Shown here in pieces: positions 11,696 through 55,689 of a DNA stretch of 64,000 nucleotides. The notes below the pieces were generated by a model. That model was given only the letters and a program-made list of their open reading frames with translations, did no database searches and was not told the origin of the DNA. How positions within the stretch are numbered: position 1 is the stretch's first letter; each line of letters begins with the position of its first letter. The DNA lies in the IMG/VR virus record IMGVR_UViG_3300006750_000005, positions 1 through 64,000 of that record; one strand, given 5' to 3'. A program made the translations under genes and the position numbers. This stretch comes from a virus.

Positions 11696-12076
11696 CTAGC
11701 CCTTATTAGCAATGATGATTTTGTAGCTCGACACATTAGGCAATCCCAACATATCTCTAATCTCACCTATTGTATCAGAATATGCATTTAGCCAAAAGTG
11801 ATCTTTGTCTGAATGTACATAATTTTCATATTCAAAGGAAGTCTTCTTTCCCTCTAGATTACCCCAATTGCCCTGTATTTTCTCGGAGTCAGAAACGACT
11901 ATATGAGGAGGAGCGGTTGGAATGGTGTAAGAAACGTTCTTAGGGATAAGCTTAACATAATATTCAACTATATCCTTGTCTACCTCGACAACGACAACAG
12001 GGGGCTTCTTGAATCGCAAGAAGCCCACAGACTTATGCCTCACTGATTCACTGAACAGCCACTCTTTGAATTTCAT
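11696..12076 (-). CDS. Hypothetical protein with capsid-targeting-like N-terminus, 126 aa
   Basis: Begins MKFKEWLFSE, one of the clearest examples of the shared N-terminal motif in this window (M-K-x-F/W-x-x-W/F-L-x-E). In T4 such leaders target proteins into the prohead and are cut after Glu by gp21. The remaining part is a soluble beta-rich domain (PPVVVVEVDKDIVEYYVKLI) of unknown family. AGGATAA precedes the ATG. Confidence 0.7.
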   Translation of the reverse strand: MKFKEWLFSESVRHKSVGFLRFKKPPVVVVEVDKDIVEYYVKLIPKNVSYTIPTAPPHIVVSDSEKIQGNWGNLEGKKTSFEYENYVHSDKDHFWLNAYSDTIGEIRDMLGLPNVSSYKIIIANKG

Positions 12077-12425: not shown

Positions 12426-12722
12426 ATGAAATTCAAACTGTGGCTAGAAAATACATCAAAATTTCGATACATCGGACAATGTGACCGATTGAGAAAATGT
12501 GGTGGAGAGGATAATTGGCAGGAAATGATGGCTAAAAAACAGCCTGTCACAAAAGAAGAATTCGAATCTGCCTGCGATGTGTCTCCTTTATTAGATGAAG
12601 ACGAAACATTAGATGGCTGGCTATCAGGAAATAAAGATCACGCTTTCTTCAAAAGTGTGTGGGAAAGGAGCCCAGCCTACTTCATTCAAACCCATGGGTT
12701 TGAATTCATATTCTCAACTTAA
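12426..12722 (+). CDS. Hypothetical protein with capsid-targeting-like N-terminus, 98 aa
   Basis: Begins MKFKLWLEN. The rest is a small mostly helical acidic protein with CDRLRKCGGEDNW. It converges with the GT4 gene and overlaps its end by nine bases. It likely starts on a leaderless message from the box at 12413-12420. Confidence 0.65.
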   Translation: MKFKLWLENTSKFRYIGQCDRLRKCGGEDNWQEMMAKKQPVTKEEFESACDVSPLLDEDETLDGWLSGNKDHAFFKSVWERSPAYFIQTHGFEFIFST

Positions 12723-19068: not shown

Positions 19069-19417
19069 GAGGCTCAATACAACTTACACGTAAGTCAAAC
19101 GGCGATATGTAACAGTCGCCTACTCTGTAATCAGCGTAGGCGACTGTTTTCTTTTGTATATACAGTTTAACATTGCACTCGTCATTGCTGCGTAGCTCCA
19201 TGTAATAAACTCGTTTATCATCTTTTCTATACTTTTGATCTTCTGGCATGTGAAAACTACTCTTCACAATTTGACCTTCATCAAATTCAATGTAAGGGCC
19301 ACGACCTCCACATACCACCCTATTACACCCTGTGGCTACATGAGTTCCGCCTTTGGTGTAAAACCTCCAAGAGCATCCTTTAATTGGAATTTGTAACCTG
19401 TCCTCGTAATCTGTCAT
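19052..19417 (-). CDS. Conserved hypothetical protein, 121 aa
   Basis: ATG at 19417 overlaps the stop of the polymerase gene (ATGA), so it is translationally coupled. Beta-rich, with CSWRFYTKGGTHVATGC and CYISPFDLRV. The C-terminus converges with the scaffold-like gene. It probably belongs to the replication transcript, but the family is not named here. Confidence 0.65.
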   Translation of the reverse strand: MTDYEDRLQIPIKGCSWRFYTKGGTHVATGCNRVVCGGRGPYIEFDEGQIVKSSFHMPEDQKYRKDDKRVYYMELRSNDECNVKLYIQKKTVAYADYRVGDCYISPFDLRVSCIEPLKDPS

Positions 19418-21495
19418 TTTTCGCACCCTACTGGGTCGATATTTTTATATCTTAATTTGATTGATTTACCGCCCCTGGCTTCGCTCAGGAAGCGACTAAA
19501 CAAAAGGTCATGTTTGATTGGGTCGATGTCAGTAATGCCCAAACAGTAGCATGTGAGAGCGCCTACGGCTGAATTATGCACTAGACAGGTTGAAGTTAGA
19601 TAATTATGCTCATCTCCCTCAACGGTTAGGTCATAAACCGATGGAATTACAGGCGGAATTGTCTTTTTCTTCTTAATTCTTAGCAAGTACCCCCCACTTT
19701 CAAGTGGTTGAGCATACTCCTCATTAATTTCATTTTTCAATATGTCAACCAAATGCTTTGACTCAGGGCAGAAGACCCAATCTCCTTCCTCTATATCATT
19801 TGCCTCTTTCCATTCCAACTCTTTGTCTGAACTTTTGGTAGAAAGAACTTTGTGATCTTTGGTAAAAGTAGCACCAATAACATCTCCATAAAAGCATTTC
19901 AGCTTAATCATCTCTTCCTTGTTCGGATATTTCAATACATCAACAACTTTTACGACTTCTCCTTTACGATTAATGACTGTATCCCCAATTTCTACAAACT
20001 TAATCTTCTTGTAGTTTTTAATGCTTTCTATGTAGATGAATGTATCTGGAGACAAGCATCCTCTGCCTGGACCAACAGCTTCGCTTCCGTCACCCCATCC
20101 AAGGATCTGCGGAGAAGCACGACGGGCTTCATCGGTCATTGCCTTCTGTATCAAAAAGTAAGAAGAAAATCCCTTTCTGCATATCAAACTATACTCTTCT
20201 TTAATTCTCATTTGATATTTTTTAGTTTTAGGAAGTCCACGGAATTTAAAGCCTTCCATTACAACATCCTTAAGTTTTTCATTAGCGTCATCAATGTCTG
20301 GCAGCTTGAGAGTTCTATCAAGATTAACATCAACCATTTCGCAAACCTTGACTGTATTCGCCTTAGCTTGTTTGAAAAGATCATAGTCAATTATGTCTGA
20401 GTAATCGGATTCCCATTTCTGATTTAGCTCATCTTCCGATTTCATCCAAAGATTCTGGTCCTGCAATTCGAACAGATCTTCCGCTTCTCCTGCTGCGACC
20501 TTCCTCTCAACTTCCTGAATTGTGCTTTTTTGATTTACCATCAACGAAAGCCTCTGGTAGTGAGAATCCTCTGGGTTGCAGTAATGGCAGTCGTTTGTGA
20601 TGATTAAAGGAATTCCATACTTGTCGTGCGCTTTAAGAATAAATGCATCGTATGGCTTTTGCTTTTTAAAATCCAACAACATAAGTTCTAGGCGAAAATT
20701 TTCACCAAACATACGATGATATTTTTCTACCATCCTGAAGGCAGCTTCTTCGCCAAATTTGTCAAAGGCTTGTCCAATCTCGCTCAAATAACAGCACGAG
20801 GTGAACATGATCCCTTCTTTGTGTGCCATTATTTGCTCATGATTAACTCTTGGCTTATAATAAAACCCTTCAGTCCAGCCCCATGATGTAAGACGAACAA
20901 GGTTTTTATATCCTTGATTAGTATAAGCAATTGCCAAAAGATGATAAGACTTTCTTAATTTATCGGATTCGCCTTTGGCACTAAATTCTTTCTTCCTTTC
21001 ATCCCAATCCATTTTTGCTGTTTGGTATGGGCTAAGGTAAAGCTCGCAAGCAAAAATTGGCTTAATGCCATTATCGTCACAAGCTTTTACCTGTCTTGGA
21101 ATAGCAGCCATCATTCCATGATCTGAGACAGTCAAAAATCTTTGATTGATCTTTGTCGCTCGAAGCGCATATTCTTCTGCCGTTCCATATCCGTCAAGTA
21201 AACTGAACACAAAAAATTTTCCCAAAATTTTCTAATGGGGGTGGACTATCTCTTCGCCATAACATTAAGTCTTAGGCGCTGGACGCTCTTGCCTGTAATT
21301 AAGAGGGCTTAACCTCTCAGGTAGTCTCTGCACGTTCCTAAAGTGTACTTTAGGCTTCGCTCAGGATTGCCCTCGACTTTACGTTAGGGGTTCCCTGAAT
21401 TCATCCAGTTTTCTTAGCAGCTTTCGCAAACTAAGCGACCTCAGTTAATCGGTGTGTAAGTGGAGATTTTCAAAGCCACATATTTCATGTCTCAT
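19414..21495 (-). CDS. dnaE: DNA polymerase III alpha, N-terminal part (PHP domain); contains a group I intron and an intein
   Basis: Exon 1 is 21448-21495 (MRHEICGFENLHLHTD) with AAAGGA upstream; exon 2 is 19414-21207 and continues FSLLDGYG. Together they rebuild the PHP start HLHTDFSLLDG. Further PHP metal ligands are present (VSDHG, ACELYL, TNDCHYC), so the exonuclease site looks intact. The protein runs to GPGRG, is interrupted by a 162-aa mini-intein, resumes SAVGALTCYCLGITDIDP and ends soon after LLFSRFLSEARGG. The palm with its catalytic Asp lies in the separate gene at 3045-5609. The mature chain is about 451 residues. Without intron splicing, translation stops after 16 codons. Confidence 0.88.
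19573..20058 (-). mobile_element. Mini-intein in the Pol III alpha N-terminal gene (162 aa)
   Basis: Begins CLSPDTFIYIES and ends LVHN before Ser+1 of SAVGAL. FTKDHKVLST is the block B-like TxxH region. It has no LAGLIDADG segment, so it cannot home by itself. It sits at the GPGRG|SA motif in the nucleotide-binding region of the replicase. Confidence 0.9.
21208..21447 (-). ncRNA. Group I self-splicing intron (240 nt, no ORF)
   Basis: On the minus strand the intron begins TAACTGAGGTCGC and ends TTTTGTG. The exon end ACCGAT pairs with GTCGCT (P1, with the usual U-G at the splice site and one mismatch). ACTGAG pairs perfectly with the first six bases of exon 2, TTCAGT (P10). The core shows GGGCAATCCTGAGCGAAGCC, GTGCAGAGACTA and AGATAGTCC, giving P7 between GACTA and TAGTC; the form recalls the tRNA-Leu-type introns. 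Removal restores the polymerase reading frame. Confidence 0.92.
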
Positions 21496-21579: not shown

Positions 21580-21607
21580 AAAACGCCCCTAATGCTAGGG
21601 GCGTTTT
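21580..21607 (-). terminator. Bidirectional terminator upstream of the polymerase gene
   Basis: AAAACGCCCCTA, loop ATGC, and the exact complement form a 12-bp stem with A/T ends. It would end the ClpP-side transcript before the polymerase gene, which must then have its own promoter; a TATAAT lies at 21574-21569. Confidence 0.8.
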
Positions 21608-21674
21608 AATTTTATTTTTACGACAAGTTTTAATTTTATTTTTACGACAAGTTTTAATTTTATTTTTACGACAC
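21603..21674. repeat. Three tandem 24-bp repeats
   Basis: GTTTTAATTTTATTTTTACG followed by ACAA repeats at 21603-21626, 21627-21650 and 21651-21674; only the last base differs. A partial fourth copy TTTTTGCGACAAGACTT follows to 21692. AT-rich with a CGACAA core. A protein-binding array, promoter region or replication-related site is possible. Confidence 0.85.
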
Positions 21675-21704
21675 TTTTTGCGACAAGACTTTTTTCAACA
21701 AGTC

Positions 21705-21915: not shown

Positions 21916-22161
21916 TTAGGTTCCTTCTTGCATTTTCCCATCAAAAACTATTGGCTTTTGACTTTCATCAAACATAATCTTTTCTTTTTCCGCTCTATCA
22001 TACAATTCTTTTTTCTTAGCGGCATATTCATCATACTTAACTTTAAATTCTTCTGACAGAACTTTCATTTCTTCGTGAATTGCAGAAATATTTTTAGAGA
22101 ACAAAACGAACTCATCGCTCAAGACATCATCTATGTTTATCATCGCTAATACATCATCCAT
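21916..22161 (-). CDS. Coiled-coil protein, 81 aa
   Basis: After a short N-terminus, residues ~22-65 form a charged coiled coil (EEFKVKYDEYAAKKKELYD). No membrane segment. It starts two bases after the ClpP stop, so it is in the same operon. Possibly a ClpP-associated or structural factor; not known. Confidence 0.6.
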   Translation of the reverse strand: MDDVLAMINIDDVLSDEFVLFSKNISAIHEEMKVLSEEFKVKYDEYAAKKKELYDRAEKEKIMFDESQKPIVFDGKMQEGT

Positions 22162-22163
22162 AA

Positions 22164-22856
22164 TTATTTTCGCTTCTTAACAGATTTTTTAATTTTTTCA
22201 ATTGTTTCGAATCCTTTCTCTCCCATAATCCCATCCATAAAACCATATTCAACAGATTCATCGGCAGTGATCCACCAATCTGTGAAGTATCTCATTTTCT
22301 TATCTAGGAAGTTAAGTATTTGCCTGTCAGACATTTCTGAGAAGTAATCAGTTTCCTTGCATCTTTCCAGATAAATTTGCAGCATCTTCTTGTTCGCTCT
22401 TTCATTCCAATCAATAGTAGATTTAGCCGATGTAGAAATTTCGTCCACGGAAATGCTTCCATAATGGATCATAAAATCTGCTGTTGGCATTATGACTCGC
22501 TTATCAGCCGCTTGTGGTATCACACTACTCATAGATTGCGCATGAGCATAAGCTATCAAGGCTATTGGGCATGGCGAAACTTTTATGGCATCGTAAATAG
22601 CTATTCCATCGTTCCACTCTCCCCCAATTGTGTGCATGTGAATTACAATCGGATCATTACTCTGCCTTTCCAAATGGTGCAAATTTTTTATAAAAGTTGT
22701 TGCCATTCTATATTCAACTCCAGGTTCTTCGCTTTCCTGGTAATACCCATGCAAGTATACCTCCCTTGAAGGGACATTAACATTCACAGTATGAATATCA
22801 TGCAATAAATCTTCCCGTTGTTGGAACAACTTCTTTTTATCACGACCGTTAGCCAT
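22164..22856 (-). CDS. clpP: ClpP-like serine protease
   Basis: Clp/crotonase fold. Nucleophile Ser108 in AHAQSMSS, catalytic His131 in FMIHYG 23 residues later, and the substrate-binding glycine pair in HTIGGEWNDG all fit ClpP (Gly-rich loop, G-x-A/Q-x-S-M). The start at 22856 (MANGRD) was chosen because AGGAGG lies eight bases upstream; the GTG three codons earlier overlaps that site. ClpP makes a barrel protease fed by ClpX/ClpA; phage members may also act in head maturation. Its place beside the PrkA-YeaH-SpoVR set and in a genome with tmRNA suggests control of protein turnover. No Clp ATPase is seen in the window. Confidence 0.82.
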   Translation of the reverse strand: MANGRDKKKLFQQREDLLHDIHTVNVNVPSREVYLHGYYQESEEPGVEYRMATTFIKNLHHLERQSNDPIVIHMHTIGGEWNDGIAIYDAIKVSPCPIALIAYAHAQSMSSVIPQAADKRVIMPTADFMIHYGSISVDEISTSAKSTIDWNERANKKMLQIYLERCKETDYFSEMSDRQILNFLDKKMRYFTDWWITADESVEYGFMDGIMGEKGFETIEKIKKSVKKRK

Positions 22857-22924
22857 ATAATTCACCTCCTACATATAGTTATAGTAGGATATTTAAAAAG
22901 GTGAATTAATAAAATCAAAAATCA

Positions 22925-22953
22925 CGTAAGTCGTTTACAGCACACAACTTACG
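22925..22953 (-). terminator. Hairpin after the SpoVR gene
   Basis: CGTAAGT and ACTTACG pair around a 15-base loop, followed on the minus strand by GTGATTTTTGATTTT. Weak terminator between SpoVR and ClpP. Confidence 0.5.
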
Positions 22954-24567
22954 CTATATATCTTCACCTTCAAATTCCTCTCTTGTAAACCATGCAACGT
23001 CTTTATCTGCATCCTCACCTGTAGCGACACAAACAAACTCTTCACCTTCTTTGTTTCTGGTGGACAATGCTACTGGATTCTTCCACAATCTATAAATAGA
23101 CGACAATGACTCTTTGACATAAGGATCATAAAGCGGTCTTCCGTCGTCATCGAAATGCTCCAACAAAAACACTCCCTTGCCACGATAATTGGGATCAACA
23201 AGACGAATATCTGGCAGTCCGCCGTTCAAATGGTTTTGCATCAGCTTTTGCTTTATGGTTTTAAAATCTTTGTTTGCTATAACATACTCTCCATTAGGTC
23301 TTTTCTCCCATTCAAAGAACTCTTTCTCTACACAGAACTCTGGAGTGAAAAACTCATGAATGGCTGTATAATCATCATGACACTTTCGAACTTCAAAAAC
23401 CTTTTCTTTCCCAAGACCTAATTCCAAATCCCAATCTTTTCTCTCTTGCATGTTAGTGCAGGCATCAAATTCAGGACCGAAACGACCTTTATTCCAACGT
23501 TCCTCAATGTCAAGAAACAGTTCAAAGCCAAGCTTGTATGGATTCATGGAATACTTGCCACCAAGAACTCCTGCTTTATGGTCTGCGTACTCAATAATCC
23601 CAGATCCAGACTTTTCTCCATCTAGAGTGGCATATCCTTGTCGAGCCATAATATTATAATCAACATAACTAGCCCATCCTTCATTGAGAGTTTTTGTAAT
23701 TCTTTGAGGAGAAAAATACAAAGCCTCATCATAAAGCATGTCTACAATGTCTGCCTGCCATGGTTTAAGAGGCGCGTTATCTCTCAAGTACCCTAATATA
23801 TTTCGGGTCGGTTTTTTAAATAACTCTATCTCCTCGGCAGCTTCTATCTTTTTGATCCTCTGATTCTCTTTATCTTTCCAAGACTGAGGATTCATCCAGT
23901 CTTCCATATAATCATGACCTTCTGGCACGTCTATATGTCGAGCATGGTGATACTCTCTCTTGTCTTTAAGATTAAGGTCTTTACTTTCCCTTCTCTGCCA
24001 AGCTTGTGCTGGGTCTACAAGAGTGTCTAGTCTCATAACGTGATCAATGAACTCTGTAACTCTCTCATTTCCCCACCTTGACATATATCTGCGTATACGG
24101 GTTCCATGATTAGCCAACGTGTTCATCATGTTGTGAGTTTCAGATTGAGTTGGCGCAAAACGAACATTGTTTTTAAAGAAATCATTATGACCAGTTGCGT
24201 GAGCCAAAACAGTCACGTTATCAACTAATGTATTTGAATTCAAGAAATATATATAACAAGGATTTGTATTGATGACCATTTCATAAATACGATGCATTCC
24301 ATGCTCAAACCCTACAGACAACTTCTCATACTCCATTCCCCACTTCCAATGTGGGTATCGAACTGGGAAGCCTCCATATGCAGCCACTTCACTGATCTCA
24401 GAATAATCCAACCATTGCACGACAGTAGGCCAAAAATCTAAACCAAAATCTCTGCATGCTTGCAAAATCTCTGGGATCAATCTCTTCATCTCTTCTGGTG
24501 GCTTTACGCCTGGGATAGTATTGCTACCAACCAACAGTGCGTTACCTCTCATCAAACTCTTTGCCAT
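22954..24567 (-). CDS. SpoVR family protein
   Basis: At 537 residues it matches SpoVR/YcgB in full length. Landmarks in order: DFWPTVVQWLDYSEISEVAAY, FPVRYPHWKWGMEYEKL, NTNPCYIYFLNSNTLVDNV, AHATGHNDFFKNN, PWQADIVDMLYDEALYFSPQ and LNEGWASYVDY. The His-rich HATGHNDF and EGWA parts are invariant in the family as I recall it. In bacteria SpoVR takes part in spore cortex formation or in stationary-phase stress with PrkA and YeaH; its biochemistry is unknown. It is the third gene of the PrkA-YeaH-SpoVR order, with 11 bases to YeaH. Confidence 0.93.
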   Translation of the reverse strand: MAKSLMRGNALLVGSNTIPGVKPPEEMKRLIPEILQACRDFGLDFWPTVVQWLDYSEISEVAAYGGFPVRYPHWKWGMEYEKLSVGFEHGMHRIYEMVINTNPCYIYFLNSNTLVDNVTVLAHATGHNDFFKNNVRFAPTQSETHNMMNTLANHGTRIRRYMSRWGNERVTEFIDHVMRLDTLVDPAQAWQRRESKDLNLKDKREYHHARHIDVPEGHDYMEDWMNPQSWKDKENQRIKKIEAAEEIELFKKPTRNILGYLRDNAPLKPWQADIVDMLYDEALYFSPQRITKTLNEGWASYVDYNIMARQGYATLDGEKSGSGIIEYADHKAGVLGGKYSMNPYKLGFELFLDIEERWNKGRFGPEFDACTNMQERKDWDLELGLGKEKVFEVRKCHDDYTAIHEFFTPEFCVEKEFFEWEKRPNGEYVIANKDFKTIKQKLMQNHLNGGLPDIRLVDPNYRGKGVFLLEHFDDDGRPLYDPYVKESLSSIYRLWKNPVALSTRNKEGEEFVCVATGEDADKDVAWFTREEFEGEDI

Positions 24568-24578
24568 TGCTATCTCTC

Positions 24579-25772
24579 TTATGCTGTAATTTGGTTTTTG
24601 CCTAGTAAGTCTTTAATCGCCTTTGTGACAGCTTCATCACGATCCTCAGTTGTCAAACCCTTCCATCCAGCACCATCACCAATTGCTGTCGTTTTAATAT
24701 GTCCTGGGTTTAATATTCCGTTTTCAAGAGAATCATCAACAAATCTCTTCAAGCTGTTATCGTAATTGTAGCTATAAACTTGTGTGAGTCCAATGAAATT
24801 AACGTTTTGTGGACCAAGAAACTTATTTATAGTACCAGCAAACACGTCATTGTCGCCACGAATGTTATCGCCATCAGTAAAATAGAACACATACACATTC
24901 CACTTCTTGGGATTGAATCTGTCCTCTAAGTTCTTGGCAATCAAATTCATAGCAGACGAACACATTGTTCCTCCACCATAACGATAGTTGTAAAACTTGT
25001 CTTCGTCAACTTCTTGTGCAGCCCAATCGTGCCAGACATAGACTCGCTCAACCTTTTTATAAAACTGTCTAATCCAAACATCAATCCACCAACTCATATC
25101 ACTTACAATTTCGCACTTCTTTTCGTCCATGGAACCAGATCCATCACGAGCGAAAAATATAACTGCATTACTTGCAGGTTTATGATGCTCTGTATATTGA
25201 CGATACCTGAAGTCACTCTTTTGCGGAGTGATCATTCTCATTGGATCAGGAAATCCTGGCAACGTGTGAAGATTATCCCAATCTCCAGAAGCGGCTGTTC
25301 TCTTCAATGCTTGTTGAAGAGTTTTTCTTCCATGCCTTAATGAATTAGGACCTTGAAGAGAAAGACTGTTGTATCTCAAAAAAGTTTCTTCGACAGTATC
25401 ATTGTCTTTTGGTTTCATCGGAGGAAGTTCAAGTTCTCCAGCCATGAATTTCAAGACTTCTTCCAAGTCTAATTGAATTTCAATGCCTTCGCCTTCGCCT
25501 TCACCAGCTTCATTCCCCTTACCTTGACCATCATCGTCCTTGCCAATTACTTGCCCCTTCTTCCCTGGTCCTCTGGCAATTCCTCCACCACCAGAATCTC
25601 CAAAAACAAGATGAGGAATGTCAAGCTCTGGAATTGCAATTGATATTTTTCCGTTCTTACTTCTTCTTGGAAATATCTGACCTGTCTTCACATGCTTCTT
25701 CAAGGCTTTGCGAATTCTTCCAGACACCACATCACGAAATTGTTTATGATCTTGTTCTATTCTTCTTGGCAC
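24579..25772 (-). CDS. yeaH: YeaH / DUF444 protein (VWA-like)
   Basis: The start is GTG 25772, giving MPRRIEQDHKQFRD, the family N-terminus, with GGAG eight bases upstream; the longer frame adds 27 residues unlike the family. Then GRIRKALKKHV, a Gly-rich acidic linker (residues ~75-115), LRHGRKTLQQAL, and a von Willebrand A-like domain with DGSGSMDEKK (MIDAS DxSxS) and YGGGTMCSSAMN. The C-terminus keeps FYFTDGDN. In bacteria it works with the kinase PrkA/YeaG under starvation. The gene is 11 bases from SpoVR and 89 from PrkA. Confidence 0.92.
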   Translation of the reverse strand: MPRRIEQDHKQFRDVVSGRIRKALKKHVKTGQIFPRRSKNGKISIAIPELDIPHLVFGDSGGGGIARGPGKKGQVIGKDDDGQGKGNEAGEGEGEGIEIQLDLEEVLKFMAGELELPPMKPKDNDTVEETFLRYNSLSLQGPNSLRHGRKTLQQALKRTAASGDWDNLHTLPGFPDPMRMITPQKSDFRYRQYTEHHKPASNAVIFFARDGSGSMDEKKCEIVSDMSWWIDVWIRQFYKKVERVYVWHDWAAQEVDEDKFYNYRYGGGTMCSSAMNLIAKNLEDRFNPKKWNVYVFYFTDGDNIRGDNDVFAGTINKFLGPQNVNFIGLTQVYSYNYDNSLKRFVDDSLENGILNPGHIKTTAIGDGAGWKGLTTEDRDEAVTKAIKDLLGKNQITA

Positions 25773-25797
25773 TTTAATACTCCAACTATAAAAGATA

Positions 25798-25828
25798 AGG
25801 CTCGCCCGCCCACAGGACGAGCGAGCCT
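25798..25828 (-). other. Hairpin between PrkA and YeaH
   Basis: AGGCTCGC and GCGAGCCT make an 8-bp GC-rich stem in the 89-base spacer. No T-tract follows on the minus strand, so it is more likely an mRNA-stabilising or processing hairpin than a terminator. Confidence 0.5.
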
Positions 25829-25861
25829 CACACAGGATAATAGATTTGAACAATGAGACGA

Positions 25862-27928
25862 TTACTCGTCGTCAATGTCGCCTCTCGCAAAGATTCCACC
25901 AACATGCTCCAAAACGTCACGAGCAGATTCGTCATTATAACCGAACTGTTCAATCAAACGAGTTTTCAAAAGGTCAATCTTTTTCTGGGTGTCAGGATCA
26001 ACAACATTAGCTGCATCGCTCAATGCGGACAACTTGACCTGATCCTTTGTGTCTTCGAAAAGCTTCATTTCCAAAGCCTTCTTAAGCTGAGTATTTGAGT
26101 CCCACTTAAACTCTTTGCCTTCGTGGGAATAATCTCCAATAAACTCTGAAACAGATCGTCTATAATCATCTGCCTTGATGGAAGCAATTCCAATCTTCTC
26201 TTCAATCGAACGCATCAATCTTTCGTCAGGCTCTTGATCTCGACCAGTAAACTTATTTCTAATCTTTGATCCACGATTGTGAGCCATAACATTATCAATG
26301 TATTGAGTGCAAAGACGAATGATGGCATTTTCATCTGCAACCAAAGCTTTCTGAACTTCTGACTTCACAACTTCGTCATACTCTTTGATGGTAAGCTCAA
26401 CTGCTGTCTCATACTTTGCACGGTCCTCTTCATTGTCTATCAATGATGATTGTCCAAGCCCTTCTCTGATCTCATTCAAAACCATGAATGGGTTTATGTA
26501 AGCATGATTGTCACTCAAGCAATTAGAGATTTTATCCTGAACATATCTGGCACTTACGCCCTTGTTCATTCCTTCATCTAAATACTTGTCTTTCAACTCT
26601 TTGACTTTATCTTCGGTCCAACCAGGAAGGTATTGACCATCATAAAGCTTGGCTTTCTCCACCAAGTCTTTCAACTCATTGTCGCCACCATCTTCAAGTC
26701 TAGTCAAAACAGCCCACAAAGCAGCCATCTCTAAGGTGTGAGGAGCTACGTGCTGCTTGATGTTGTCAGGACTATAATCCTGCTGCAACACTTTTAATTC
26801 GTCTGATATAGTCAAAAGATAAGGAACATCAATTTTAATAGTTCTATCTCTCAAAGCTTCCATGTGAGGATTAGACTTCAACTTTTCAAATTCTGGCTGG
26901 TTTGTATGACCAATCAAAACTTCATCAATTGTCACCTTGGCAAACTTCTTTGGCTTAATCGAATGATCCTGAGTTGCTTCCAACAGATCGTACAAAAACT
27001 CCTGTTGCAATTTGAGCATTTCAATAAATTCAACTACGCCCCTGTTTCCTACGCAGAATTCTCCATCAAAATTAAACGCACGAGGATCACTGTCAGATCC
27101 CCAATGAGCAATTTGAGAATAGTCAATATCGCCAGTCAATTCTGTGGCATCTTGATTCTTCTCATCTTTTGGTTGGAATGTAGCAATCCCAACTCTATCG
27201 GCTTCGGAATAAACCATTCTAACCACACTGATGTGTTCTGCCAAAACTTTTTCCAAGTCTCCATCATACCTCTTAAGCAAAAGCTCCATGAAAAGTTTGC
27301 ATCTTGGATTCAACTCTCCCTCACACTTTAATGTGTATGGAGCGTCACCGTCATTTTGTTCAACAATAATATCGTTCAACTCTTTAAGAACTTCTTCTCT
27401 AAGTTCTTGAGGGAGCAACTTCAAAGGATCTTCATGCATTGGACTCATGCATTCTTCTTTGGTGTAAATTCCGTTTTGTCCAACAGGAAGGTTGACCCAC
27501 TTATAACTGTACCAAGCGCCATCATCAGTGTTAGAGTAATTCTCCAATCCCCTTTTCATCAGGCGGCAAATCGTTGACTTGGAAGATCCAACTGGTCCAT
27601 GCAAAAGAAGAACTCTCTTCTCTGTTCCAAATCCTCCAGCAGCACCTCTAATGAATTTCATCAATTCATCAAGAGTTTGCTCCAAACCAAAAATTGGAAT
27701 TTTGGGATTATCAAAGAAATTATAATGAACGAGCTTCTTTCTATATCTCTCAAATTCATGAGTCCCGTCAGCCATGATCATATCATACAACTTTTGAAAA
27801 GCTGTGCGAACTAGGGCAGGTCGCTCATATGCTGCGTCTAAATATTCCGAGAAAGAAAGTTCTTCATTTAGATTTTTAAATTTTTCGGTGTTAAATCGCC
27901 CAGCGATTCTCTGCAAACGGTTTTCCAT
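25862..27928 (-). CDS. prkA: PrkA-type serine protein kinase (AAA domain)
   Basis: At 688 residues it matches PrkA/YeaG. Start at MENRLQRIAG with AGGA eight bases upstream. The N-terminal AAA-type domain has PIFGLEQTLDELMKFIR, Walker A GPVGSSKST, and KWVNLPVG. Later come IDYSQIAHWGSDSDPRAFNF, GNRGVVEFIEMLK, VLIGHTNQPEFEKL and RDRTIKIDVPYL. The C-terminal part, with INPFMVLNEIREGL, is the PrkA C-terminal domain. Bacterial homologues phosphorylate proteins or act as a AAA protease-like factor in stationary-phase response. First gene of the trio. Confidence 0.93.
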   Translation of the reverse strand: MENRLQRIAGRFNTEKFKNLNEELSFSEYLDAAYERPALVRTAFQKLYDMIMADGTHEFERYRKKLVHYNFFDNPKIPIFGLEQTLDELMKFIRGAAGGFGTEKRVLLLHGPVGSSKSTICRLMKRGLENYSNTDDGAWYSYKWVNLPVGQNGIYTKEECMSPMHEDPLKLLPQELREEVLKELNDIIVEQNDGDAPYTLKCEGELNPRCKLFMELLLKRYDGDLEKVLAEHISVVRMVYSEADRVGIATFQPKDEKNQDATELTGDIDYSQIAHWGSDSDPRAFNFDGEFCVGNRGVVEFIEMLKLQQEFLYDLLEATQDHSIKPKKFAKVTIDEVLIGHTNQPEFEKLKSNPHMEALRDRTIKIDVPYLLTISDELKVLQQDYSPDNIKQHVAPHTLEMAALWAVLTRLEDGGDNELKDLVEKAKLYDGQYLPGWTEDKVKELKDKYLDEGMNKGVSARYVQDKISNCLSDNHAYINPFMVLNEIREGLGQSSLIDNEEDRAKYETAVELTIKEYDEVVKSEVQKALVADENAIIRLCTQYIDNVMAHNRGSKIRNKFTGRDQEPDERLMRSIEEKIGIASIKADDYRRSVSEFIGDYSHEGKEFKWDSNTQLKKALEMKLFEDTKDQVKLSALSDAANVVDPDTQKKIDLLKTRLIEQFGYNDESARDVLEHVGGIFARGDIDDE

Positions 27929-28014
27929 AATCATTATCCTGTGAAATAGAAACAAACTTAAGATGCTTCTAATTTAAGAGATAATGACAGCCGTATCAAT
28001 AGCTAAATTAAATT

Positions 28015-28374
28015 TTATTTAACTTTGCCAAAGTATTTTCCACCTTGAACATCTTTGTCATTATTAGTTGGGTCATACTTATAAGGATCTTCGCCATCCT
28101 TTTCTTTGGAGAGAGCATGAGCCCTGTCCGCTTCGGCAGTTTTTGTTTTATGTCTGTACCGATAATCGTGAGAATTGTTGTATCTATCGGTGCCTACAGG
28201 GTTTGAGAACGTAAAAGCTAACGATCCCACTATCTTATTCTTGTCTTTCGACCCACACTCTGGGCATTCTGCATCTTCCCTGATTTCTTCTAATGTGCGT
28301 TCTTCCCCATATGCCTTTCTAATCAATTCTTCCCATTGATTTTCACACTTCTTACATTCAAACGGTTGGATCAT
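28015..28374 (-). CDS. FmdB-like zinc-ribbon protein, 119 aa
   Basis: Residues 6-42 form a zinc ribbon, ECKKCENQWEELI and later CPECGS, like the FmdB/regulatory zinc-ribbon family. The rest is Asp/Lys/Asn-rich and low in hydrophobic residues (SHDYRYRHKTKTAEADRAHA), ending GGKYFGKVK. It overlaps the upstream gene by 17 bases. Role unknown; DNA or RNA contact is likely. Confidence 0.65.
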   Translation of the reverse strand: MIQPFECKKCENQWEELIRKAYGEERTLEEIREDAECPECGSKDKNKIVGSLAFTFSNPVGTDRYNNSHDYRYRHKTKTAEADRAHALSKEKDGEDPYKYDPTNNDKDVQGGKYFGKVK

Positions 28375-28678
28375 CTTCTTTGCCTTTCAGAAGACTTTCA
28401 TCTTCTTTTATAATAACTATTTCATTAAGTTCACTATATGCCTCTTTGATAATGCGAATTTTACGCTTCAAAGGCATAAATCTCCAGCCAAAAGTCTTTT
28501 CGGCTAGTTTTATTGCTACAGAAAGCAATCTTATATTTAAATCTTGTTCAATCGCATCTAGCTGCAATACGCCCAATATGTCATTTTTTATGTATGGCTC
28601 ATCATCTTCAAACTCGAACATATAATCTGCCTCATCTTGAAACTCTTCGCCTTCTTCGTCAAAAAAATATCTTCGCAT
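28358..28678 (-). CDS. Hypothetical protein, 106 aa
   Basis: Acidic N-terminus (FFDEEGEEFQDEADYMFEFE), then a helical part with AEKTFGWRFMPLKRKIRII. Not recognised. Coupled to the zinc-ribbon gene. Confidence 0.6.
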   Translation of the reverse strand: MRRYFFDEEGEEFQDEADYMFEFEDDEPYIKNDILGVLQLDAIEQDLNIRLLSVAIKLAEKTFGWRFMPLKRKIRIIKEAYSELNEIVIIKEDESLLKGKEDDPTV

Positions 28679-28731: not shown

Positions 28732-28938
28732 TTAAATGGCAATTATTTCATCTGTTTCTGCGTCCATAATCACAAATTGATCGTGATACTCTTCTGCACC
28801 TATAGCATTAAGATACTCATGGCAAGATTTCAACATCTCCTGAGCTTCTTTCAAATCCTCAGAACACCATAAGCCATATCGTGGGTGATTAAGCTTTCGC
28901 TTAAACATTTTATTATAAAGAATGTAAGCTTTTTTCAT
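28732..28938 (-). CDS. Hypothetical small protein, 68 aa
   Basis: Reads MKKAYILYNKMFKRKLNHPR, YGLWCSEDLKEAQEML and ends IIAI; an alpha/beta mini-protein similar in size to many T4-like small accessory proteins. It overlaps the next gene by four bases (ATGA). Confidence 0.55.
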   Translation of the reverse strand: MKKAYILYNKMFKRKLNHPRYGLWCSEDLKEAQEMLKSCHEYLNAIGAEEYHDQFVIMDAETDEIIAI

Positions 28939-29162
28939 TTACCAATAACGCCTGAACGAGGTTTTTTCATTTTCCCTGCGCTTGCTGATGACCCCTTCAC
29001 CTTCATTGGACCTGGAGGGAAAGGGATTACGTCCCTGGCAGGGTTTACCGCACGCACGCTTCCAATCATAGAAGGATTTATGCCAACTCTATTGCCACCA
29101 TGTTTTCCGTTGCCAACTTCAAGCAAGTTCTTTTCATTTAAAAATTCGTGAAAAGTTATCAT
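28935..29162 (-). CDS. Small protein with capsid-targeting-like N-terminus, 75 aa
   Basis: Begins MITFHEFLNEKNLLEVG, with FLNE matching the (I/L)-x-E cleavage pattern and a second L-x-E following. The remainder is basic, Gly/Pro/Lys-rich and unstructured (PFPPGPMKVKGSSASAGKMKKP), as in internal head proteins. Overlaps both neighbours by four bases. Confidence 0.6.
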   Translation of the reverse strand: MITFHEFLNEKNLLEVGNGKHGGNRVGINPSMIGSVRAVNPARDVIPFPPGPMKVKGSSASAGKMKKPRSGVIGK

Positions 29163-29901: not shown

Positions 29902-29914
29902 TCAGGAGATTGAG

Positions 29915-30088
29915 ATGAAGACTTGGAAAACGTTTCTAGAAGAAAAAAATGGTGACGACTTGAAAAAGCCGACCACTAAGAAGACTAATTGCTGGTATTG
30001 CAACAATAAGATCAAAGATGGGGAAGCCCTGGAGGTCGGTGGCAAAAATTATTGTTCCGACCATTGCTTTAAGTCACGCAGCAACTAG
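29915..30088 (+). CDS. Small zinc-finger protein with capsid-targeting-like N-terminus, 57 aa
   Basis: MKTWKTFLEEKNGDDLKKP, then CWYCNNKIKDGEALEVGG and CSDHCF, a Cys4-type treble clef. AGGAG lies before this ATG; a longer frame upstream overlaps the lipoprotein and was rejected. Its first 40 bases are nearly repeated 190 bp downstream. Confidence 0.65.
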   Translation: MKTWKTFLEEKNGDDLKKPTTKKTNCWYCNNKIKDGEALEVGGKNYCSDHCFKSRSN

Positions 30089-30110
30089 GAATTAAAGTCG
30101 GGAGATTGAG

Positions 30111-30350
30111 ATGAAAACTTGGAAAACGTTTGTAGAAGGGAAAAATTGTGGCTGTAGCTGCTCATGTTGCAAAGATGGATGCTGCACCAAATCATTTCAC
30201 AGCAAGTGGAAAGACTTCAAAACTGGAAACGGATCTTGCTGCAAAAGCTGCAAATGTTGCAATGGAACGTCAGGGCAAGAAAGTCCAAAAAGCAAAGAGG
30301 CGGGAAAAAACGCATCAAGGCAACGATGGAAGGATGCATCAGCAAGTTAG
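30111..30350 (+). CDS. Cys-rich protein with capsid-targeting-like N-terminus, 79 aa (frame uncertain)
   Basis: MKTWKTFVEGKNCGCSCSCC starts like the preceding gene and has GGGAGA at the same distance, so the start is supported by duplication. The following 16 Cys come from GCTGC/TGCAAA-type DNA. The +1 frame over the same DNA (30148-30372) reads an Ala/Lys-rich helical protein and may be the ancestral frame after a one-base change. Both are given as possible. Confidence 0.45.
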   Translation: MKTWKTFVEGKNCGCSCSCCKDGCCTKSFHSKWKDFKTGNGSCCKSCKCCNGTSGQESPKSKEAGKNASRQRWKDASAS

Positions 30351-30473: not shown

Positions 30474-32738
30474 ATGGCTATGAGATTCAGTACATTCTTA
30501 GAGATAAAAGACAACGACCTTCAAGACGCCCTACATTGGTGGGATGAAAATGAAGGGGAGATAAATCCTAGTGATTTATCATTTGGTCATATGTTCGGAA
30601 ACAAATACAGAATAATATTAGACCAGAATAAAGATAACGATCTTTTAAAAATTGACAAACTGCTGAATTCAAAAGGATATTTTCCAGATTGGTCTACCGG
30701 ATTGGCTGGCTACGAAAAAGAAACTAATCGAGGACCAAAGACCATGCAGGTCAAGGTCACAAAAGTATTAAACAAGTTAAATCCATCCCTAGCTGCATGG
30801 TTGTCTAACTTTCTAATGCATTCTAAAAAATCTCATGGAGAAGATTTTTGGAAGTATGGAGTCGAGCCAGCAATGAGGAAAGCCAAGCAATCCGATTCTT
30901 TTGCAACAATAATATCTCGTCACCCACTTGACATTATTCGCATGAGCGACCACACCAACATAACCTCTTGTCACTCGCCTGACGATTCGTATTTTCCTTG
31001 TGCAATATTAGAGGCAATTCACGGAGGACCAGTTTCTTACTTAGTGAAAAAATCAAACTTAGAAGGTCTAGACGAAGAAGACTTACAAAGTCCAGACTTT
31101 TTCCATGATGAGGATAGAGGCGTAGAAGGTCCAAGCCCATTAGCAAGAATGCGACTAAGAAGATATTCTCCAAAAGACGCAGATAGCCATGAATTAAAGT
31201 CTGGGAAAAGGGATTTATTGATTCCAGATAAAGCCACTTATGGAGATACCGTAAACGCAAAGGCTGTTGGCTTTGGACCACAAGTAATGAGTTGGGCTAG
31301 GAATGAACAAAAAGATGCATTAAAAAAAACGCCCAAGATGGACGATTATGTATTGAGGGGCGGATATTACAGAGATCACAATGATGGAAGTTTGTGGAAT
31401 TCATTTTTTGAATTAAAAGGCAAAGACAAAATACATGGCGATGCTGAATACGGTAGCGAATTCGAAAAAAATGACGACCGTTACCAACAGGGCAACAGAG
31501 AACAAATTTGGACTGAAGAGGCAGACCAAATGTATGCCGATTTTGTTAAAAAATTAACAAGCGACAAAAAAAGAAGTGGAAGTAGATCTAAAATATCCGC
31601 ACACCACAGCGTAGATGCAATTGGAGGCTATGGTTATGGCGAGGAAAATGAGGAATTTGAAGTAAAATACTCTGGAGAAGTATCATTTTATTTCCCTGAT
31701 AAATTGATAAATGGAGATCCAAAAACAGCGTCGAGAAGAATAGACGTAAATCAATTAAAAGAGGTGTTAGAAGATGCAGTTGACGACAACTATCAGTCCA
31801 TCAGCACTTCTGTGTCGGGCAGCACCCTAAGCATCACATTGAGCTTCGCGAAAGAAAAAGTAGACAGTTGGGAAGAAGATTCTTTGGGTCCAGATCCATA
31901 TGGAGAATTTTTGGATCATCTTCTATCTGTAGATAAAATCTATAACAAATTAGAAGAGGGAATTAGACACGAACTGTCAGAGCAAGAAGTCCTAAAGCCA
32001 ACAGGGTCATCTAATTGGGTCAATAAAGCTGTAGAAGACGATGAGAAGAATAAAATCAAATACTTCCGAATAGAGGATGCTGGGTATGGAAAAACCACAG
32101 CGACATACACTTTGGAAATGCCTGAGCATGGGTACATGGTCAGATTCAAGGATAAATTTCCATTAGTTAAAAAACAAAATGCGTATGGATACCAAGGCGA
32201 GCAGTTTATTATCGACCTAACAAAACCTCCATTCAACAAAATACCAAAAGCAATAGAGGATCTAGTCAACCCAAAAGAAATTCAAAAAACTCTGCCTGGG
32301 ATGAAGTTCAAAAATTTCGTCTTAAGAGATGAGGGCGGTCCTAAATATTCTCTAGAAATAACGCCTAGCAAAAAAAGCACATGGATGGACAAAAGTTGGA
32401 ACAGATTAAAAATTGAATTTTCTTGGGATGTCAATAAAAACAAAAACCAAGCAAAAGCAACATACAAAAACATGATGGCAATGGACAAAATCATTCCTAA
32501 AATAAAAAATGTTGCGTCCATAGAATTCATGAAAGTTATGACAGAATTCAAAAACTCTATAGATCCTAACTGGCATGAAAAAGACGTTCAAGGACCACCA
32601 AAAGGTTACGGGAATTACCCATCTCGTCCATATGACACAATACGGGGACCTGGAAGAAAATTCAGAAACGTTCAAGGCATGATACCTCAAGTCGCTGATT
32701 ACTACAAAGACCTAGAGGACAAAAAATATGAAACTTAA
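30474..32738 (+). CDS. Large hypothetical protein with capsid-targeting-like N-terminus, 754 aa
   Basis: Begins MAMRFSTFLEIKD. Not assigned to a family. A striking conserved-looking stretch is IISRHPLDIIRMSDHTNITS followed by CHSPDDSYFPCAILEA (residues ~145-182), with paired His, Asp and Cys that could form an active or metal site. The rest is soluble, Lys/Asp-rich, with several long acidic stretches and a C-terminal region rich in basic residues. If the leader is a capsid-targeting sequence, this may be a virion-packaged enzyme delivered with the DNA. The mRNA is probably leaderless. It overlaps the next, opposite gene by four bases. Confidence 0.65.
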   Translation: MAMRFSTFLEIKDNDLQDALHWWDENEGEINPSDLSFGHMFGNKYRIILDQNKDNDLLKIDKLLNSKGYFPDWSTGLAGYEKETNRGPKTMQVKVTKVLNKLNPSLAAWLSNFLMHSKKSHGEDFWKYGVEPAMRKAKQSDSFATIISRHPLDIIRMSDHTNITSCHSPDDSYFPCAILEAIHGGPVSYLVKKSNLEGLDEEDLQSPDFFHDEDRGVEGPSPLARMRLRRYSPKDADSHELKSGKRDLLIPDKATYGDTVNAKAVGFGPQVMSWARNEQKDALKKTPKMDDYVLRGGYYRDHNDGSLWNSFFELKGKDKIHGDAEYGSEFEKNDDRYQQGNREQIWTEEADQMYADFVKKLTSDKKRSGSRSKISAHHSVDAIGGYGYGEENEEFEVKYSGEVSFYFPDKLINGDPKTASRRIDVNQLKEVLEDAVDDNYQSISTSVSGSTLSITLSFAKEKVDSWEEDSLGPDPYGEFLDHLLSVDKIYNKLEEGIRHELSEQEVLKPTGSSNWVNKAVEDDEKNKIKYFRIEDAGYGKTTATYTLEMPEHGYMVRFKDKFPLVKKQNAYGYQGEQFIIDLTKPPFNKIPKAIEDLVNPKEIQKTLPGMKFKNFVLRDEGGPKYSLEITPSKKSTWMDKSWNRLKIEFSWDVNKNKNQAKATYKNMMAMDKIIPKIKNVASIEFMKVMTEFKNSIDPNWHEKDVQGPPKGYGNYPSRPYDTIRGPGRKFRNVQGMIPQVADYYKDLEDKKYET

Positions 32739-33406
32739 AACACGAATTTAGACATTATTCGATATTTAATGTTTAAGGCATTCATCAAAAGCTGGACCTC
32801 TCTAAAGCATTCATCTCTACCACCACCACAGAGATACCCATTGTTAAATCTTCTTAATTGCAATAAATCAATATGAGGAAGATTGATTGAATCATGCAAA
32901 GGAACCTCCTCATCGCCAAATATTTCTTCCAGTAAATCTTCTGGAAGTTCCCTAGAATCATAAACACGGTTTGTAATCATTGCACGTATTGTCTGAATAA
33001 TCTTACTTTCTTCTACTCCGTTATCCATCCAACCTCTGAAAAAGGCGTACCCTTTATCATAGAATGTGATGTTGTTCAAAAGACGAAAAACCTCTGACAT
33101 AGATTCATGGGATTCTTCATCACCATAAGAATCATAAGGGTCATAGTATTCCGCCTCCTCTCCCGTCATCGCTGTGGCTAACCAAGCCTTAATTGACTCC
33201 TCATTGTCCTTTGATCCAACGCTTTCGCCATTGAAAAAGTATAAGACTTTTTTACCTTTAGAAATCATTTGGGTGAGAAAACTGGCGAAATCACCTACAT
33301 CGAAACCAATGCCGTTATCATATTCCGGCTGAATATCAACCACGATAGTGTTGTTGGCATTATATTGCCCATATCTTTCAGCTAAAAGCCATTTTTTGAA
33401 ATCCAT
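32735..33406 (-). CDS. Hypothetical protein with capsid-targeting-like N-terminus, 223 aa
   Basis: MDFKKWLLAERYGQ fits the leader (WLLAE). Then NTIVVDIQPEYDNGIGFD starts like an alpha/beta hydrolase such as isochorismatase (first strand ending in Asp), and KVLYFFNGESVG follows as a second strand. The C-terminal CGGGRDECFREVQLLMNALN has a Cys and helix in the place of the isochorismatase nucleophile, but the match is weak. Probably leaderless from the box at 33412-33419. Confidence 0.6.
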   Translation of the reverse strand: MDFKKWLLAERYGQYNANNTIVVDIQPEYDNGIGFDVGDFASFLTQMISKGKKVLYFFNGESVGSKDNEESIKAWLATAMTGEEAEYYDPYDSYGDEESHESMSEVFRLLNNITFYDKGYAFFRGWMDNGVEESKIIQTIRAMITNRVYDSRELPEDLLEEIFGDEEVPLHDSINLPHIDLLQLRRFNNGYLCGGGRDECFREVQLLMNALNIKYRIMSKFVF

Positions 33407-40677: not shown

Positions 40678-40706
40678 ATTATAATCCGATAGAATGCTGG
40701 AATCAA
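40678..40706 (-). promoter_or_regulatory. Sigma70-type promoter of the ThyA-DHFR operon
   Basis: On the minus strand TTGATT, 17 bases, TATAAT. The -35 overlaps the end of the gene upstream. Confidence 0.7.
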
Positions 40707-41044
40707 CCCGAAGTTGCGAAAGATTGTGCGCATTTGCTACACATTGAATTTATCGACAATTCTTTTGATGAAGTTTTGCCTTTGCACTTTGGACAAATAT
40801 TTCTAGACCGTGCTTGAGGTGGGACTGGCACAGATGCAACAGATGCAGTGCTTGTAGATTCGTTCTTCTTTTTGCCCTTCTTCTTTTTAAAGAATGGATC
40901 TTCTTCGCCCCATGGACCCAACCACTGTCTAGTGACCATTGGGAGAGTCTTTCTGGCGAATCCTGCTACGCAACTTGTGCTTGTAGACACTTCATTCTGG
41001 CTGTTCTCTTCTTCTGCCAACCATTCTTTAAAGTTTTTGATCAT
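40703..41044 (-). CDS. Zinc-ribbon protein with capsid-targeting-like N-terminus, 113 aa
   Basis: MIKNFKEWLAEEENSQNE is a full leader with WLAEEE. A low-complexity part with FFKKKKGKKKNESTSTASV and PVPPQARS follows, then a zinc ribbon ICPKCKGKTSSKEL and MCSKCAQ. AAGGAAA precedes the ATG. Unknown; possibly packaged in the head. Confidence 0.65.
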   Translation of the reverse strand: MIKNFKEWLAEEENSQNEVSTSTSCVAGFARKTLPMVTRQWLGPWGEEDPFFKKKKGKKKNESTSTASVASVPVPPQARSRNICPKCKGKTSSKELSINSMCSKCAQSFATSG

Positions 41045-52064: not shown

Positions 52065-52415
52065 ATGCAGAAATTTTCCACATTCCTAGAAAACCTAGAA
52101 GACACTCTTGCGCATCTTGCTAATGCTCAGAGTGGAACTGCTGCCGCATCAATTCGTGGCAAGCAAACTAGTGAGTTAGATCCAGATGATTCTGACAGTG
52201 AACATGTTTTGGATTCTGACCCTGAACTTCGTCGTCTTGCAAAAAGACTTAACAGCATAGGGCAAAACGCATTGAAAAATCGTCACGTAATTAGAATGAT
52301 GCAAATTCTAAAGAAGAACCCTGGCATGGATGCCAACACTGCTGTTGTCATGGCAATGCATGAAATGTTTACCCAGAAGCAATTGCTTTGGAAGCGTCCG
52401 CAACAATCTTCTTAA
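52065..52415 (+). CDS. Hypothetical protein with capsid-targeting-like N-terminus, 116 aa
   Basis: MQKFSTFLENLEDTLAHLAN fits the leader (FLE). A helical C-terminus with NPGMDANTAVVMAMHEMFTQ. It converges with the helicase gene and overlaps its end by 47 bases. Unknown. Confidence 0.6.
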   Translation: MQKFSTFLENLEDTLAHLANAQSGTAAASIRGKQTSELDPDDSDSEHVLDSDPELRRLAKRLNSIGQNALKNRHVIRMMQILKKNPGMDANTAVVMAMHEMFTQKQLLWKRPQQSS

Positions 52416-55400: not shown

Positions 55401-55689
55401 GATTTTCATTTGTCCAATCATCAATCTTCTCTTGAGTCAAAGCTTTAAGAGGACCAAGGTACATTCCCTTCCCTCCACGCACACGTATCTCATGTGCCAA
55501 GTACGCTTCTGCACAAACAGTCTTTCCAGCAGAAGTTGCTGCTGCGATTAAACAACTAGCATCGTGATCATACGTTTCCATCACTCTGCTTTGAAGTGGA
55601 TTGAATTCCTCAAACGGCCATTCCGCATGGGGATAATCTGCTGTCTTTCTTAATTCGTTTTGATCTACGTATCTTTTTACTGGTGGCAT
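52369..55689 (-). CDS. Ski2/Hel308-type DNA/RNA helicase with an intein
   Basis: The extein is 676 residues: motif I SAGKT, motif II VDESHLL, motif III SATMPN, then DKFLVFVHTKN and motif VI QMIGRAGRVGLD. The motif V region STLAWG|CNLPARRVI is interrupted by the intein. A winged-helix/ratchet-like C-terminus ends with a helix-hairpin-helix GIPNVGKVRATKLYKAGL. Hel308 enzymes unwind lagging-strand DNA at forks; Ski2 enzymes act on RNA. The HhH end and replicative context favour DNA. Precursor 1106 residues; start ATG. Confidence 0.88.
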   Translation of the reverse strand: MPPVKRYVDQNELRKTADYPHAEWPFEEFNPLQSRVMETYDHDASCLIAAATSAGKTVCAEAYLAHEIRVRGGKGMYLGPLKALTQEKIDDWTNENHHFKDLKISICTGDYRLTASRKKELANADLIIMTTEMLNCRCRNYKSENNDWLKEVKTIVVDESHLLTVPGRGDHLEAGLMKFSEISPNSRIVMLSATMPNVKQIAEWVSYSLTKNDTDMIESTFRPCKLNVHYERYWDGARSYQDNELSKVGSAVQIVNDYPDDKFLVFVHTKNTGEMVKRALKRDGIEAEFHNADLTKEKRIDLQNRFKDKGDLRCIIATSTLAWGCHKHGDRVLMGNGSLKDVSLVKEGDTLLSQVDGKYLPKKVLGSRTFNEDSGWFLKLESGEKMTVSEDHLFYSAIGRNSPCWNKVSDIKKGDFVAVPKNLNIWSKSSFSDFWYLIGFSFGDGSLCFAGNHADGEDKISLNLCMGEKTDHIPFVKGVFFKEFGVNLSLSCNKDDVNYFQTKKRSVVDKFSKILPIGRRDGSHDIPKEVYENSERVSCFLSGWFDADGGMEDHGNGNLSVGLSCISEKAIESCKSLLLGYGIRSSCGKKKNKDRIINGRKQKAKREWIYRLRIYGYENVVAFNEFIGFKHPDKDERLKEYIKSIDENKFSKDLIPARDLLLDHIKENDMKPKDFREISGTDLWNAVNKSDCNRKTVDKFLKNTEKRSSLNDLFDSPIGWSRVEEVCLCEGGDFREIEVESPHNYVGCGAISHNCNLPARRVIVTGVHRGLSEVANYDVLQMIGRAGRVGLDPMGDAYILLPESKFDEWSERLQVPEDIQSQMLDKAPGGHHKVLAFHIVSEIHHGGIQTMEGVHDWYERSLAHFQNKELDEEVVDNVMNLLSMCGAIKVEDNKFKCTSVGKIASMFYYSPFDIADLRKSLTGVFNSGNEINDLWVSMALGNIDSHKMGIVSKAEREEMSQYAGLIGRIFGPKVMEPAIKAGFAYFNLLNGRSSKSFAALQRSIQQDYPRMSEVLMALDTMSCRWGKKDFFKKIRTRMVYGIEEHLVGLCGIPNVGKVRATKLYKAGLTSPEMIVANPEIVKKSLNMKDDAIKKIVADASKAIASG
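53428..54717 (-). mobile_element. Intein with LAGLIDADG endonuclease in the helicase gene (430 aa)
   Basis: Begins CHKHGDRVLMGNGSLKDVSL and ends GAISHN before Cys+1 of CNLPARR. VSEDHLFYS is the block B His. LIGFSFGDGSLCF and FLSGWFDADGGMED are the homing helices. It sits in helicase motif V, a conserved ATP-coupling strand. Confidence 0.92.

Follow-up and report, generated by a model that had tools for sequence, protein, structure and literature searches.

Related systems in bacteria and phages

The closest described counterpart of the viral locus studied here is the bacterial prkA-yeaH-spoVR operon (yeaGH and ycgB in E. coli, also found in Myxococcota, Planctomycetota and Bdellovibrionota), which contains the same families in the same order on one strand. 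Co-conservation of YcgB, YeaH and YeaG has been reported (PMC2375023), and YeaG and YeaH cooperate to quiesce metabolism in E. coli (PMC10954441). The biochemistry of PrkA, YeaH and SpoVR is obscure in bacteria despite their wide occurrence. The viral locus differs from the bacterial operon in that its proteins form a separate clade, carry virus-fixed residues in SpoVR and YeaH, and include SpoVR copies interrupted by inteins.

Two other groups of machines resemble the trio in architecture. The MoxR AAA+ and vWA-metallopeptidase pair of group 2.2 jumbo phages, proposed to function in virion assembly (PMC7824862), shares with it an AAA+ motor, a vWA protein and a metallopeptidase-like part, but its vWA protein and peptidase are one fused protein, and MoxR is not of the PrkA family, to which the AAA+ protein of the window belongs, with no MoxR-type Pfam match. 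Metal-insertion machines of the AAA+/vWA kind, NorQ-NorD among them (PMC13036017, PMC9976466), consist of an AAA+ ring and a vWA partner acting on a client with a metal site; their AAA+ family is different, the client of NorQ-NorD is nitric oxide reductase, and the likeness is architectural only.

Earlier work on phages treated the genes one at a time, with SpoVR as an auxiliary gene for sporulation (PMC8940887) and PrkA as a kinase, and PrkA and SpoVR were listed separately in the Ralstonia phage RsoM2USA, where they lie around one unannotated 1.36-kb gap (PMC8504454). Among the open-access papers searched, we came across no description of the three genes together as a phage unit, and the main text of Al-Shayeb 2020 makes no mention of PrkA, YeaH or SpoVR. 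All three families are found close together in the Thermus phages phiYS40, TMA, phiLo, MN1 and Lalka, as in our locus. The Thermus phage genes differ in their order (YeaH-SpoVR-(hypothetical)-PrkA), in a PrkA of only ~30% identity, and in forming a separate lineage in the PrkA tree. The huge phage LR745206 has the order PrkA-YeaH-SpoVR, like our locus. However, LR745206, LR756502, LR756504 and RsoM2USA carry a short-form, E. coli-like PrkA (26% identical to ours in the huge-phage copies), which points to a separate acquisition. Further short-form PrkA copies occur on contigs with gp23 and terminase genes; some of the smaller contigs with a short-form copy may come from bacteria. Since the separate captures in other phages keep all three genes, we count them in favor of one functional unit.

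The module and its genomic context

The window analyzed is a 64,000-nt stretch (positions 1 to 64,000) of the 69,040-bp IMG/VR virus record IMGVR_UViG_3300006750_000005, which has a single PrkA match. Pfam searches bear out the first-pass annotation in identifying complete, adjoining PrkA, YeaH/DUF444 and SpoVR genes on one strand. The minus-strand region 22164-27955 encodes, in the direction of transcription, PrkA, YeaH/DUF444, SpoVR and a ClpP-like protein, the first three being full-length. The features of the locus are as follows.

28358-28678 (-): small function-unassigned protein, conserved upstream neighbor from the gene order of relatives
28015-28374 (-): FmdB-like zinc-ribbon protein (NCBIfam TIGR02605, 9.7e-06, below its cut-off)
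25862-27955 (-): PrkA ORF, favored start 27928 with SD-like site (AAA_PrkA 5.5e-80, PrkA C-terminal 1.2e-69)
25795-25831 (-): terminator-like hairpin between PrkA and YeaH (17-bp stem, 3-nt loop, T-rich tail; consensus scan only)
24579-25853 (-): YeaH/DUF444 ORF, favored GTG start 25772 with SD-like site (DUF444 8.3e-61)
22954-24567 (-): SpoVR, 537 aa, start 24567 (Pfam SpoVR 4.6e-105, plus SpoVR_C)
22164-22865 (-): ClpP-like serine protease ORF, favored start 22856 with SD-like site (Pfam 6.5e-21)
21916-22161 (-): small function-unassigned protein, downstream neighbor conserved in part of the clade from the gene order of relatives
19414-21225 (-): N-terminal half of DNA polymerase III alpha, with an intein at GPGRG; independent clade marker

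The FmdB-like gene is the immediate upstream neighbor of PrkA in most relatives. The module lies beside phage replication genes, as first annotated: a split Pol III alpha, UvsX, gp32, a helicase, thymidylate synthase, DHFR and dNMP kinase are nearby. No ribosomal or other host core genes were detected among the window proteins scanned (a part of the ORFs), and no tRNA genes were found in the window scan. A scan for the late-promoter sequence TATAAATA gave a frequency not above chance, and hence no signal of late timing. The PADLOC models gave no match for the module, and we rejected an anti-phage defense system on that ground.

The hairpin between PrkA and YeaH may reduce the expression of YeaH and SpoVR relative to PrkA. 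Across relatives, the spacing between these two genes includes gaps as large as 2.5 kb. The hairpin and the gaps count against a reading of the three proteins as a single machine.

Conservation, gene order and joint loss

A scan of viral contigs with the PrkA of the window returned 131 relatives. The best 80 of the 131 (58-67% identical) were reduced to 59 non-redundant contigs, 45 of which extend more than 6 kb beyond PrkA. In every one of these 45, PrkA, YeaH and SpoVR follow each other in this order on one strand, so the check suggested by the first-pass annotation, whether large phages keep the gene order, came out positive. The relatives include contigs of 298-527 kb that bear T4-type gp23 capsid genes; among ten large relatives, Gp23 was matched in seven (1e-16 to 3e-89) and Terminase_6N in six. 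With T4-type capsid and terminase genes in close relatives, the group can be assigned to the tailed huge phages.

Because sampling by PrkA itself had to be avoided, a second, PrkA-independent scan was keyed on the neighboring N-terminal half of the polymerase, giving 65 loci with at least 9 kb of upstream sequence. All three genes are nearby in 52 of these loci; six have a partial set, truncated in most if not all cases where the sequence examined ends, and seven lack the trio nearby, two of which have it elsewhere in the record. The five remaining records (fragments of 24-104 kb) lack PrkA, YeaH and SpoVR alike. When 13 records were searched with all three Pfam models, the same eight contained PrkA, SpoVR and DUF444 and the same five contained none; loss of a single member was not seen among the records checked. 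In four records (L268, L270, L272 and L277), the FmdB-like neighbor and the polymerase gene are retained while all three module genes are absent, indicating that the trio comes and goes as a unit. Each of the five largest records found through the polymerase (320-527 kb) has one copy. Most of these giant bacterial viruses, a large family, thus still have the complete trio in the same order.

Where a large relative has a gp23 match, more than 25 kb, and mostly more than 100 kb, separate the capsid gene from the module. This distance bears on the idea that PrkA-YeaH and SpoVR act as a virion-assembly chaperone for the folding, processing or maturation of head or tail proteins. Proposed precedents are the jumbo-phage MoxR pair described above, with its similar three-part make-up (PMC7824862), and the archaeal virus ATV. 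In the Thermus phage Lalka8, unlike in the clade of the window, the trio is flanked by head genes on one side and TerL on the other (portal, minor head, vWA, SpoVR, PrkA, then TerL), a context that favors virion assembly over an action on cell physiology, and TerL of phiYS40 is ~1.2 kb past PrkA. The ClpP-like neighbor also has a high NCBIfam score for a ClpP-related head-maturation protease, although below the cut-off. Nonetheless, the module of this clade has replication and nucleotide genes as its neighbors and is distant from capsid and TerL, some close relatives are without all three genes, and the bacterial homologs have no virion to build. We therefore regard a role in virion assembly as unlikely.

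Origin of the viral module

The nearest bacterial PrkA proteins are 50-54% identical to that of the window and come from Myxococcota, Bdellovibrionota, Planctomycetota, Chloroflexota and others; their loci mostly share the PrkA-YeaH-SpoVR gene order. A second, wide PrkA scan left the top loci nearly unchanged. In quick maximum-likelihood trees with SH-aLRT support only, whose cellular side consisted of only the 80 nearest bacterial loci, each of the three proteins shows a single viral clade apart from the cellular copies (SH-aLRT of 99 for PrkA, 100 for YeaH and 100 for SpoVR). The PrkA tree suggested as a check by the first-pass annotation thus does place the viral copies in one clade, and the three genes do not fall inside one host genus, as a recent assembly artifact would have it: their nearest bacterial relatives span many phyla. 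Since the viral clade stands outside the nearest bacterial copies, the capture is old rather than artifactual. Host contamination or a recent assembly artifact is also opposed by phage contigs of 300-500 kb and was rejected. The simplest reading of the trees is that the whole operon was captured once, long ago, from a bacterium and has since descended vertically.

The identity of these relatives is also relevant to whether the trio could be a dormancy or sporulation switch that pushes the host into or out of dormancy. When E. coli starves, YeaGH puts a brake on metabolism (PMC10954441; PMC4664914), PrkA is required for B. anthracis sporulation (PMC13001217), and earlier work interpreted spoVR as a viral gene for sporulation (PMC8940887). 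However, nothing points to a host that forms spores, Myxococcota, Planctomycetota and Bdellovibrionota are among the nearest bacterial relatives, and the trio is present in many non-spore-forming bacterial groups. It is also carried by phages of Thermus, a genus that does not form spores. Host-dormancy control, proposed in the first-pass annotation, is plausible by analogy, the argument being drawn from bacterial phenotypes only, yet we think it improbable that such a switch is what the trio provides. The sporulation reading, like the kinase reading considered below, is poorly supported.

PrkA

PrkA of the window is a long-form AAA+ ATPase (~688 aa) with a PrkA C-terminal domain and a Walker A motif, GPVGSSKST. 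Its membership in the PrkA family is clear (269.5 and 235.3 bits, where the cut-offs are 25), and a solved relative, 9xip (annotated as "serine protein kinase"), spans nearly all of the protein. The family name and the PrkA C-terminal domain would suggest a Ser/Thr kinase that rewires host signaling, with YeaH and SpoVR as substrates or scaffolds. In E. coli YeaG, a change of Lys426 abolishes function (PMC10954441); the corresponding site is an aspartate in nearly all PrkA sequences compared (viral, 38 of 40; nearest cellular, 44 of 45). The kinase and protease activities of B. anthracis PrkA are negligible (PMC13001217). The lack of conservation of Lys426 and these negligible activities favor a motor role. 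The first of these, a comparison of sequences, led us to reject the kinase reading, which we consider very unlikely.

YeaH and SpoVR

YeaH is a vWA-domain protein (DUF444, 206.7 bits) with an intact DxSxS (MIDAS) motif. Residues D237, S239, S241, T296 and D327 are invariant across 25 sequences, while R236 and S251 are fixed in the viral copies, unlike in the cellular ones.

SpoVR matches its family with 352 bits, in addition to SpoVR_C. The residues H123 and H127 (HxxxH) and N295, E296, G297 and A299 (NEGxA) are invariant in 68 sequences, the second motif reading NEGWA(S) at 295-300. Position 303, beside NEGWA, is an aspartate in 34 of 34 viral and a histidine in 34 of 34 cellular sequences; outside the clade, it is an aspartate in phiYS40 and a histidine in two other huge phages. 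A124, N149, Y279 and D303 are fixed in viral copies, unlike in cellular ones. In an AlphaFold model (pLDDT 84.7), H123 and H127 are located on one helix, and E296 and D303 on another. Judging from its conservation, this His/Glu site probably binds a metal.

The arrangement recalls the gluzincin signature (HExxH plus a distal glutamate in a NEG[FW]A helix). NEGWAS is present, but the catalytic glutamate of HExxH is replaced by alanine or valine. Comparison of the SpoVR profile with M1 peptidases gave 32.0, above 119 shuffles (maximum 29.0), yet with a probability of 9%, a weak match. A Foldseek search of the PDB gave no match below E 2.7, hence no significant solved relative by fold, with the zincins lethal factor, Ste24p and IrrE among the weak matches. 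The weak Pfam matches of SpoVR include no zincin family, and sequence searches found no solved relatives of either SpoVR or YeaH. SpoVR may thus be gluzincin-like at most and would not be a standard peptidase; we treat the resemblance as a lead rather than a classification.

Inteins interrupt many viral SpoVR genes at N100|T101, at A299|S300 or at both, these sites being at and next to invariant residues. Relatives with both include:

13292-17395 of L012: SpoVR gene with two inteins
14209-18333 of L041: SpoVR gene with two inteins
11042-15160 of L066: SpoVR gene with two inteins

Inteins are frequent in this phage clade. The window has others in a reversibly-glycosylated-polypeptide-like protein (5675-7660, +) and a DEAD-box helicase (52369-55689, -).

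The ClpP-like neighbor

The gene following SpoVR encodes a ClpP (S14) protein (CLP_protease, 75.5 bits) with an intact S111/H134/D196 triad (numbered from the start at 22865), of which D196 is nearly invariant. The first-pass annotation placed a ClpP-like gene after the trio; the gene is there in the window, but it is not a constant partner. It adjoins the trio in 21 of the 45 contigs with flanking sequence, has a different location or was not detected in other records, and is retained in L277, where the trio is gone. As a result, ClpP is a loosely linked neighbor and was rejected as a fixed member of the module. These linkage data also weigh against PrkA and the phage ClpP forming an unfoldase-peptidase pair that degrades host proteins, an arrangement that the adjacent gene, its intact triad and a former claim, cited in PMC13001217, of weak protease activity in B. 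subtilis PrkA would favor. Such a pair is highly improbable, slightly more so than a kinase.

Proposed function

Our preferred reading, held tentatively and falling a little short of an even chance, is that the trio is one viral unit, a PrkA-YeaH remodeling machine together with SpoVR, which acts on metabolism during infection. PrkA would be the AAA+ motor, YeaH its vWA-domain partner or adaptor, and SpoVR an obligate client or effector with a putative metal-binding His/Glu site. AAA+/vWA pairs drive metal insertion, and NorQ-NorD remodel and metallate their target (PMC13036017); PrkA and YeaH may remodel SpoVR, or a target presented by SpoVR, in a similar way. As PrkA does not belong to the MoxR proteins, this parallel extends to architecture only, a point against the reading. 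The distance from structural genes in this clade and the metabolic brake exerted by YeaGH favor an action on cell physiology during replication. The most likely place of action of the trio would be the cytoplasm during the replication phase, where it would influence the metabolism of host or phage, and not the virion; the outcome could be a metabolic brake or stress response like that of YeaGH in E. coli. Complex formation, metal, target and timing are what we infer for the viral trio.

A more specific version of this remodeling machine is doubtful as a whole, though somewhat less so than virion assembly or a dormancy switch. It holds that the trio is a virus-adapted, metal-dependent AAA+/vWA machine, that SpoVR is a pseudo-peptidase of gluzincin-like type, with a metal site that the change from H303 to D303 retuned in the virus, and that the module is near-universal equipment of giant phages, keeping the infected cell quiet and phage-productive. 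If true, the retuned pseudo-peptidase would offer a route to the biochemistry of the bacterial operon.

What is new here is the gene order and joint loss across a clade, the one viral origin, the SpoVR inteins, the virus-specific residues and the weak gluzincin-like signature of SpoVR. Joint keeping through deep divergence, joint loss and inteins at or beside invariant SpoVR residues show which parts and residues matter, and the phage trios provide sets of divergent natural versions for testing.

Other features of the window

Two genes ~14 kb apart (19414-21225 and 3045-5609, both -) together encode DNA polymerase III alpha. The split falls just before the catalytic PDIDIDY motif, and the N-terminal half ends similarly in the relatives compared. 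Downstream of the module, three 24-bp tandem units (21603-21679) lie beside a symmetric terminator-like hairpin (21580-21607). Two near-identical 53-nt stretches (29902-30150) at the starts of two small genes probably reflect a recent duplication of short ORFs. A cobalamin adenosyltransferase gene (58186-58794, -) adjoins an IMPDH/GMP-reductase-like gene (58787-59845, -) in this phage.

Several unrelated proteins of the window have in common a short N-terminal motif resembling M-K-F-x-x-F/W-L-x-E:

11696-12076 (-): N-terminal-motif protein
12426-12722 (+): N-terminal-motif protein
28935-29162 (-): N-terminal-motif protein
30111-30350 (+): N-terminal-motif protein
30474-32738 (+): N-terminal-motif protein
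32735-33406 (-): N-terminal-motif protein
40703-41044 (-): N-terminal-motif protein
52065-52415 (+): N-terminal-motif protein

We take this motif to resemble the capsid-targeting leader of the T4 internal proteins. By this analogy, the proteins that carry it, including one of 754 aa, may be packaged and injected.
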